From NCBI GenBank assembly GCA_021323735.1, contig JAJPKM010000048.1, positions 62,001-126,000 of the forward strand: 64,000 bases of DNA, read 5' to 3'. A model generated the notes under the pieces. The model searched no databases, was not told the DNA's origin, and was given only the letters and a program-made list of their open reading frames with translations. Source of the stretch: Gammaproteobacteria bacterium. GTDB taxonomy: Bacteria > Pseudomonadota > Gammaproteobacteria > Steroidobacterales > Steroidobacteraceae. This document shows positions 61,379-63,045 of the stretch, in pieces (the first letter of the stretch is position 1; each line of letters opens with the position of its first letter). The translations under genes were made by a program, and so were the position numbers.

Positions 61379-61463
61379 GAATACTTATGACCGCCAAAAC
61401 CTAAAAACCCTCATCCCCAACCCTGCGGGGTTTGCACCCAACGCCGATTCTACGGAGTGATTG

Positions 61464-61536
61464 GCGACAAATATCACGAGTTACGCATAAATGGGCGACA
61501 ATTTCACCCTGTTACGTGTAAAATAGCGACATCACA
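61464..61536 (+). promoter_or_regulatory. Three 31-bp-spaced repeats upstream of the fic gene
   Basis: GCGACA begins at 61464, 61495 and 61526, exactly 31 bp apart (about three helical turns). The first two units share GCGACAA, a TCAC core, GTTACG and TAAAT/AAAAT positions; the third is partial (GCGACATCAC). A TAAAAT at 61519-61524 may be the -10 element of the fic promoter. Likely operator sites for autoregulation by the downstream protein; this is inference. Confidence 0.6.
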
Positions 61537-61572
61537 GCTAATTCTGGCCAGCTTGTGCGGAGACTAGCGACC

Positions 61573-63045
61573 ATGCCGCTCGCAGTTGCAGGCAGTGACA
61601 AGACAGAGGCTCGACGCCTTCAACGGCTGACCGCGCAGGGTCAATTGCGCCGCATTCATCTCGGTGTATACACCGATGACCTGGTGCAGTCGCTGGAATC
61701 GATCGTTCGCCGCGAGCTTTACGCACTGTGCGCCCTGATCGCTCCCGGCAGCATCATCTCGCATCGCTCGGCGCTCGAGAGCAGGCGGCCGACCGCCGCA
61801 GGAAATGTTTTTCTGACCGGCCCCTATCGCAGGGACATCAATCTACCCGGTGTGAAACTTCGAATCGCACAGGGTCCTGGTCCACTCGATTCTGATATAC
61901 GGATTCCCACTTTCGGCGGAGATACATTCGTTTCAAGTCAGGCCCGCGCGCTGCTTGAAAATCTAACCGCCAGTCGCGGCGACCCTGCGGAACGACGCAC
62001 ATTGGGCGCCTCGGGCATCGAGGCATGGCTCGATCTTTTCATCAGCCGCGATATCAGCGGTGGGATCAACAAGCTACGCGACGCTGCGAGAGCGATCGCC
62101 GAGCCGCTTGAACTGCAACAAGAATTCGAGCAGCTGGACGCTACGATCGGCGCGCTGCTCGGCACACGAACAGTTCGTTTAAGCGCGGGCGCCGCGATCG
62201 CACGCGCAGCAGGCAAACCGTATGACGATGCACGGGTCACGTTGTTCCAGACGTTGGCCGGCGAGTTGCGGCGCGATTCTCTGCAGGTGCCGCCTGCCGA
62301 TCCGCATGCGGACAACCACCTGCAAGCATTCATCGAGACCTACTTTTCAAACTACATTGAGGGCACGGAGTTCGAACTCGAAGAGGCGCACGACATTGTA
62401 GTCCAGGGTCGCCCGCTGCAGTACCGCGAAGACGATTCGCACGACATCCTGGGCACCTATCACGCGATCCTCAAGTCCAAAGCAGATCCCGCTATCCCAC
62501 AGAACTTCGAGGCCTTTGCAGCGCAGACTCAGGACTGGAATCGACAGGTTATCGAATCACGAAGCGCCAAGAATCCGGGCGAATTCAAAACCGAGAGTAA
62601 TCGCGCCGGCAACACCGTGTTCGTTACGCCGGAACTCGTCGTGGGTACGCTTGAGAAAGGTTACGAAACCATCATGAGCGCAGCCACGCCTGAGAATCGT
62701 GCAGCACTGGCCATGTTTGTCATCGCCGAAGTTCATCCATTTACCGACGGCAACGGTCGCACCGCGCGCCTCGCGATGAATCTGTTTCTAACCCAGGCGG
62801 GGCTCACACGCATCATCATCCCGACGGTGTATCGTGATGACTACATCTCGGCATTGAAGGCGATGTCGAGCAACGCCTATCCGGTTCCTCTGATGCGCGT
62901 GCTCGCGCGCGCTGCGCGTTTCAGCCGATGGATCGACATGAGTTCCAAGTCAAATGCATTCGCAGCCTTGAGGCACTCCAACGCGCTCGAGCATCCCGAT
63001 GCAGCCAAACTCTCGTTTGCTGATTCGCCCATCGGCACTCGCTAA
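61573..63045 (+). CDS. Fic-domain AMPylase-like protein with AbiEi-like N-terminal domain
   Basis: A 490-residue protein starting at ATG 61573 (GGAG upstream; GTG 61555 would add 6 residues). Residues about 10-130 resemble an AbiEi winged-helix antitoxin domain: LTAQGQLRRIHLGVYTDD, SIISHRSALESRRPTAAGN. The Fic domain has an inhibitory-helix motif SNYIEG (Ser259, Glu263) and the full active-site motif HPFTDGNGRTAR (His388). Fic enzymes attach AMP or similar groups to proteins. Upstream phased repeats suggest self-regulation. No separate antitoxin gene is present. Confidence 0.9.
   Translation: MPLAVAGSDKTEARRLQRLTAQGQLRRIHLGVYTDDLVQSLESIVRRELYALCALIAPGSIISHRSALESRRPTAAGNVFLTGPYRRDINLPGVKLRIAQGPGPLDSDIRIPTFGGDTFVSSQARALLENLTASRGDPAERRTLGASGIEAWLDLFISRDISGGINKLRDAARAIAEPLELQQEFEQLDATIGALLGTRTVRLSAGAAIARAAGKPYDDARVTLFQTLAGELRRDSLQVPPADPHADNHLQAFIETYFSNYIEGTEFELEEAHDIVVQGRPLQYREDDSHDILGTYHAILKSKADPAIPQNFEAFAAQTQDWNRQVIESRSAKNPGEFKTESNRAGNTVFVTPELVVGTLEKGYETIMSAATPENRAALAMFVIAEVHPFTDGNGRTARLAMNLFLTQAGLTRIIIPTVYRDDYISALKAMSSNAYPVPLMRVLARAARFSRWIDMSSKSNAFAALRHSNALEHPDAAKLSFADSPIGTR

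Follow-up and report, generated by a model that had tools for sequence, protein, structure and literature searches.

Organization of the locus

The window, i.e. the whole stretch of 64,000 nucleotides that was analysed, carries on its forward strand a gene whose product joins an AbiEi-like N-terminal head to a Fic domain. Four operator-like sites and a sigma-70-like promoter are located upstream or at its start (Table 1). The existence of this fusion gene and its end at 63045 had been reported in the initial annotation and were both confirmed. The start proposed there, 61464, is out of frame, since 61464 to 63045 spans 1582 nt, which is not a multiple of 3. Two start codons precede the conserved part in the open frame, GTG at 61555 and ATG at 61573. 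The latter is favored on sequence grounds because GGAG is found 10 nt upstream (read by eye) and because the start codons of five relatives, as picked by a script, align with it (three ATG and two GTG). Residue numbers E263 and H388, used in the initial annotation, agree with this start. Full-length homologues exist in several phyla, and the fusion is therefore neither an assembly nor a chance artefact.

Table 1. Coordinates of the features of the fusion gene and its upstream region (window positions), and of the related HipA fusion (positions in locus L146)
Feature	Coordinates	Strand	Basis or remark
Operator-like site 1, degenerate (15 of 21)	61449..61469	+	Motif scoring
Operator-like site 2, GTTACGCATAAATGGGCGACA	61480..61500	+	21-bp motif
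Sigma-70-like promoter, GCGACA (18) TAAAAT	61495..61524	+	Inside sites 2 and 3
Operator-like site 3, GTTACGTGTAAAATAGCGACA	61511..61531	+	21-bp motif, 31 bp after site 2
Operator-like site 4, degenerate (14 of 21)	61552..61572	+	41 bp after site 3
AbiEi-like/Fic fusion gene	61573..63045	+	490 aa, ATG start; alternative in-frame GTG at 61555
Reduced winged helix, residues 1-40	61573..61692	+	AlphaFold2 model; PADLOC AbiEi match at 11-69
AbiEi C-terminal (nucleotidyltransferase-like) domain, residues 41-185	61693..62127	+	Fold match to AbiEi 6y8q and to MenT/nucleotidyltransferase chains
Helical linker, residues 186-240	62128..62292	+	AlphaFold2 model
Fic domain, residues about 241-460	62293..62952	+	Pfam Fic E 1.1e-15; FICD Z about 23
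Inhibitory motif SNYIEG, residues 259-264	62347..62364	+	Sequence; class II position
Fic catalytic motif HPFTDGNGRTAR, residues 388-399	62734..62769	+	Sequence
AbiEi-like/HipA fusion	L146:106-1941	-	HipA_C kinase domain E 7e-40; plasmid relatives L152-L158

Fic domain

Fic is the only Pfam family found in the window protein at a meaningful score, next to one sub-threshold row. Residues about 222-488 of the model match Fic structures, with FICD ranking first and CbFic2 (8cil, Z 18.9) also present among the fold matches. The intact catalytic motif and the protein's own inhibitory motif described in the initial annotation were both recovered. SNYIEG fits the pattern (S/T)xxxE(G/N) and lies N-terminal to the Fic motif, E263 preceding H388 by 125 residues. 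The motif HPFx[D/E]GN[G/K]R and the Fic fold are those of class II Fic proteins, and the product can be regarded as a putative AMP-transferase of this class; the label 'toxin' attached to it previously is presumptive.

Among the 79 aligned members of the family, the columns HPFxDGNGRxxR are invariant (79/79) and the inhibitory motif reads SN[YF]IEG in all members except one, which displays SNFIDG. This conservation is partly built in because the 80 genome loci were picked using the patterns E[AST]YFSN[FY]I and [AS]EVHPFxDG, which overlap both motifs. Homologue L015, fetched without these patterns, has HPM in place of HPF.

AbiEi-like head

The AlphaFold2 models are confident, with a pLDDT of 93.7 and a pTM of 0.85 for the whole protein (79 sequences), and of 94.7 and 0.88 for residues 1-185 alone (42 sequences). 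The best PDB match of the modelled head is the Streptococcus agalactiae AbiEi (6y8q), with a Z of 9.3 and an rmsd of 4.9 over 160 aligned residues, extending from model residue 1 to 185; MenT-type nucleotidyltransferase toxins rank after it. Rv2827c (1zel), the other AbiEi-family structure compared, aligns over 158 residues with a Z of 6.1, a value which can reflect a common fold arrangement according to the note supplied with the tool. A Foldseek search of the head gave no match at E<=0.001, its best hit being the same 6y8q AbiEi at 6.9e-3 (prob 1.00).

Sequence comparisons point in the same direction. Against the PADLOC AbiEi models, the window protein has an E of 1.4e-4, and one of these models (PDLC02269) matches 52 of the 79 members at E<=0.1, with a best value of 1.3e-6, all these E-values being taken irrespective of PADLOC's own thresholds. 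The NCBIfam model TAA_AbiEi was matched by 13/79 members at E<=0.1 (best 0.0015). Pfam AbiEi_4 has no match in the window protein; eight of the 79 members reach E<=1 (best 2.6e-4, model positions 27-47 of 49) and none of the 79 attains the cut-off of 25 bits, the best score being 21.5 bits. Profile comparison by hhalign with eight AbiEi_4 proteins yielded a pairwise E of 1e-4 over 110 columns at a probability of 57, and a second AbiEi group (three proteins) an E of 0.0089 at a probability of 5. Searching the PDB sequences with the profile of the N-terminal alignment returned no AbiEi, just weak and unrelated rows.

The weak sequence match is accounted for by the shape of the modelled head, which consists of a strand (3-5), a single helix (10-21) and a wing (strands 26-29 and 32-34), whereas AbiEi has three helices. 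Since two of the three winged-helix helices are missing from the model, DNA contact by the head is not assured. Fold and sequence profiles nevertheless support an AbiEi-like assignment for residues 1-185. The likeness to AbiEi proposed in the initial annotation thus stands, as judged by the two AbiEi-family folds and the PADLOC models, but its extent (residues about 10-130) had to be replaced. Of the two verifications suggested there, the profile search succeeded with PADLOC and not with Pfam AbiEi_4, and the structure prediction yielded an AbiEi fold whose winged helix is reduced.

In the AbiEi C-terminal domain, the charged residues R125, E129, E150 and R169 are invariant in 79/79 sequences of the genome-locus alignment (A2). 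They perhaps contact the Fic domain or belong to a functional site.

Upstream repeats

The four operator-like sites are direct repeats at spacings of 31, 31 and 41 bp. The last one covers the GGAG and adjoins the ATG. A single sigma-70-like promoter was found in the region, for a mean of 0.2 in shuffled sequences. The register was detected by lag counting: the window's own repeat pair displays 17 of 24 matches at lag 31, a value reached by 0/100 shuffles. A search for direct repeat families between 61370 and 61600 with a seed of 6 reported none. Because sites 2 and 3 served to define the 21-bp motif, its perfect matches at these two sites and the associated chance expectation of 0.06 are partly circular. 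When up to three mismatches are allowed, the pattern occurs five times in its own genome, as does the reversed control pattern, i.e. without excess; the other matches carry 1, 3 and 3 mismatches, the one-mismatch copy residing inside an ORF that resembles an aminotransferase by eye.

Five aligned relatives display a similar arrangement. Sites are located at -92/-93, -61/-62 and -20 in four of them, and at -129, -98, -67 and -20 in the fifth (L033). The -20 site scores 14 to 19 of 21. Some sites in these relatives are weak, scoring 13 to 15 of 21, and alignment is lost farther upstream. Extra weak hits occur off register in L006, L033, L032 and L008. In the five relatives, the last site reaches the first base of the start codon. 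Binding at this position could therefore also hinder the start of translation, or the site could function in the transcript.

The spacing was then compared over a broader set. The best self-match lag within 150 nt upstream is 31 in 12 of the 23 homologues first collected, six of the 23 showing nothing singly, as their value is reached by at least 10 of 100 shuffles. It is also 31 in 39/75 genome loci, taken from the best 80 of at least 551 relatives, five of the 80 having less than 150 nt upstream. These two counts are not fully independent, since L007 and L032, whose contigs have equal lengths, are probably one locus. The other 36 loci have a different best lag, 21 of these falling at 30, 32, 41 or 61-66 (41 in seven loci, 32 in six and 30 in two). 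No peak at lag 31 was present in 225 random windows from the same loci; shuffled sequences gave lag 31 in 22/1500 cases and the upstream regions of other predicted genes in 1/159. Among cluster representatives, lag 31 was retained in 22/40 at 70% identity, 8/19 at 60% and 4/8 at 50%. Clustering made use of the 74 loci also present in alignment A2, from which L030 (truncated ORF) and L074 were left out. On viral contigs, 7/11 non-duplicate loci have lag 31, several of them being close kin of the genome loci already counted; 20 of 25 viral loci entered this set, which contained eight duplicates and one locus with too little upstream sequence.

The sequence of the repeat unit varies by clade, GGAAAATATTTT being found in many Bacteroidota and TTGACA-containing units in Polynucleobacter, and the spacing recurs. 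Phased upstream repeats are thus a family trait. The possibility of a chance or promoter artefact was considered and rejected on the basis of dinucleotide shuffles, random windows, upstream regions of other genes and identity clustering. As 31 bp corresponds to three helical turns, the sites are placed on one face of the DNA.

An inverted-repeat operator of the AbiEi kind was also considered for the Fic family and rejected, the 75 upstream regions having no preferred inverted spacing. Inverted repeats reaching 11 of 12 were found in 16/75 upstream regions vs 4/75 controls, an excess without fixed geometry. Operator similarity follows the head and the Fic domain to a comparable degree, base composition being uncontrolled in this comparison (all pairs: winged helix 0.709, Fic 0.717; pairs below 60% Fic identity: 0.41 and 0.38). 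Co-variation of operator and head is therefore not clearly above that of operator and Fic domain.

Related HipA fusion

The N-terminal profile also retrieved, at E 1.7e-8, a 612-aa protein in which a similar head precedes a HipA kinase instead of a Fic domain. At least 80% of this protein is contained in 72 plasmid records. Its head has a weak sequence resemblance to AbiEi (PADLOC E 0.0038). Like the Fic fusion, it has operator-like sites upstream, but these are palindromic and repeated at 62-64 bp. The repeat was seen in 8/8 loci read, each with at least one copy forming an inverted repeat (11 to 13 of 13); the eight loci are close kin, namely L146 and seven plasmid hits of 61-70% identity picked from the 20 best, and the start used for L157 is that of the match instead of a start codon. 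As the HipA fusion has operator-like sites of its own, the head seems to be a module that arrives with its own kind of operator.

Distribution and gene neighborhood

A total of 98 genomes were searched, including that of the window, and full-length copies were found in 5 of the 97 relatives (43-75% identity, N-terminal 298 residues). In the same set, a genome of the same genus contains a decayed copy with three stops (L011). A sample of the class gave matches in 9/369 genomes, including the window's own genome and one in which the copy is split into two frames (L019/L137). Among plasmid records, 79/72,556 match, 19 of them over at least 80% of the query, and most plasmid copies are annotated just as 'Fic family protein'.

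A scan of genome contigs with the single protein recovered no relative. The profile-guided scan with alignment A1 succeeded and returned at least 551 relatives among 590 candidates, in a collection holding one genome per species; in some of them the resemblance may be confined to the Fic part. As judged by titles, the best 80 originate from Proteobacteria, Bacteroidota, Acidobacteria, Verrucomicrobia, Chlamydiales and Victivallis. Relatives are encoded by 25 loci of IMG/VR, two of which match over only a small portion of the Fic domain, and 50,697 phage records contained no match.

No conserved partner was found: no neighboring ORF of at least 70 aa in the fetched flanks is common to more than 5/80 loci. 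The same applies to an adjacent AbiEii toxin gene. The window neighbors scanned are unrelated to AbiEii, two of them carrying a 2OG-Fe(II) oxygenase domain and DUF3459. A DUF6088 gene is located near the Fic fusion on a Bacteroides and on a Hymenobacter plasmid (L022, 2383-2985, minus strand; L023, 3088-3813, plus strand), and that of L022 is weakly AbiEi_4-like.

Proposed mechanism and alternatives

The reading favored here, to which a probability of roughly 0.7 is given, is that of a class II Fic protein that has no partner gene and regulates itself, its AbiEi-like head binding the promoter of its own gene. A solitary gene, a head of DNA-binding type and sites lying over the gene's own promoter make autorepression the simplest account. 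Evenly spaced sites precede the gene here and in many relatives, and the enzyme thus probably switches its own gene off. According to this model, which we infer from sequence and predicted structure, the head would bind the tandem, 31-bp-phased sites that span the promoter and reach the start codon, and copies bound along one helix face would shut transcription off once the protein is sufficient. The SNYIEG helix would meanwhile hold the enzyme off. Control would then be double, acting on the dose through the operator and on the activity through the helix; the tandem sites suggest the first layer and the intact motif the second. Release of the head from DNA, or displacement of the inhibitory helix, would allow the Fic domain to AMPylate a cellular target, with presumed toxicity.

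A bolder reading is suggested by the DNA-dependent switch of CbFic2, a class II Fic protein reported to be converted upon DNA binding from a monomeric AMPylase into a dimeric deAMPylase (partial text of PMC10628234). The operator would here gate the enzyme as well: beyond autorepression, DNA occupancy would be an allosteric switch, Fic domains bound to the array being deAMPylating or inactive and becoming AMPylases once off the DNA. CbFic2 is itself among the fold matches and the phasing places the sites on one face, as contacts between neighbors would need; the DNA-binding domain of CbFic2 is however a different one, at the opposite end of the protein. This extension is possible, with odds clearly below even. 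A further extension is put forward more tentatively still: a portable head with its self-operator, mounted on unrelated toxin-type enzymes (Fic, HipA), would generate one-gene systems in which binding to the array silences the gene and at the same time keeps the enzyme harmless, and active enzyme would be freed when the operator DNA is lost or titrated through plasmid loss, invading DNA or replication.

It is rather unlikely that the repeats serve another factor or the transcription machinery, the head being solely an in-cis antitoxin of the Fic domain. The promoter-like hexamers do lie in the repeats, the winged helix is reduced, and the AbiEi C-terminal domain is antitoxic by itself in the AbiE system (partial text of PMC7319586). 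Against this, the spacing is missing upstream of the other genes predicted at these loci (1/159) and stays with the Fic-fusion gene as the repeat sequence changes from clade to clade, and the HipA fusion has operator-like sites of its own. Both parts of the protein come from families known in toxin-antitoxin systems, but a pair with a separate, adjoining antitoxin gene is improbable in view of the flanks of the 80 loci and of the two window neighbors described above. A secreted effector resembling CccR, a T6SS-secreted protein combining a Fic and a DNA-binding domain (partial text of PMC9755527), is very improbable, as none of the three neighboring window proteins scanned is a secretion component.

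Comparison with known systems

Fic-HTH fusions were noted in 2009, with the suggestion that they regulate fic expression (partial text of PMC2686095). The closest parallel to autorepression is CccR of Yersinia pseudotuberculosis, a fusion of Fic and HTH domains acting as repressor of its own promoter (PMC9755527, same partial text). Both proteins unite a Fic and a DNA-binding-type domain, self-repression being described for CccR and probable here. According to the same text, the HTH of CccR is C-terminal and binds two inverted 10-bp boxes 26 bp apart, whereas the head is N-terminal here and the sites are tandem direct repeats 31 bp apart; secretion by the T6SS is listed as a further difference. 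CbFic2 of Coxiella burnetii and SoFic share the class II Fic domain, the N-terminal inhibitory helix and a winged helix with the window protein, and DNA affects the activity of CbFic2. The latter differs by a DUF4172 domain in front, a C-terminal HTH and histone H3 as a target, and the available part of the report describes no operator (PMC10628234). AbiEi antitoxins (S. agalactiae AbiEi, Rv2827c) resemble the head in fold and have sites over their own promoter. As described in part of PMC7319586, they are separate proteins paired with an AbiEii nucleotidyltransferase, with a three-helix winged helix and 23-bp inverted repeats, in contrast to the fused, one-helix head and direct repeats observed here.

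No description of a Fic/AbiEi fusion, a HipA/AbiEi fusion or a 31-bp Fic operator was found in the open-licence literature searched, judged mostly by title and start of abstract. As HTH-Fic autoregulators are already known (CccR), the AbiEi-headed Fic protein with 31-bp direct repeats is rated as a new variant. Its interest lies in an operator of regular spacing that accompanies the gene, whereby the DNA ligand of a family member may be predicted from its own upstream sequence, for relatives found in at least 551 places of a one-genome-per-species collection (with the reservation on the Fic part made above). It also offers a way to test whether, as reported for CbFic2, Fic enzymes are generally gated by DNA binding, and two different classes of enzyme would here reuse an antitoxin fold as their internal regulator. 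GyrB and ParE are targeted by other bacterial Fic proteins (gyrase and topoisomerase IV; PMC7479194), as is FtsZ in the case of CccR (partial text of PMC9755527).

The PADLOC models of SoFic and of the candidate defence system PDC-S04 both match the Fic part (window 62350-62900) of 79/79 members, with E-values of 5.4e-17 and 4.5e-12, respectively, for the window protein; these matches hint at a role in defence.
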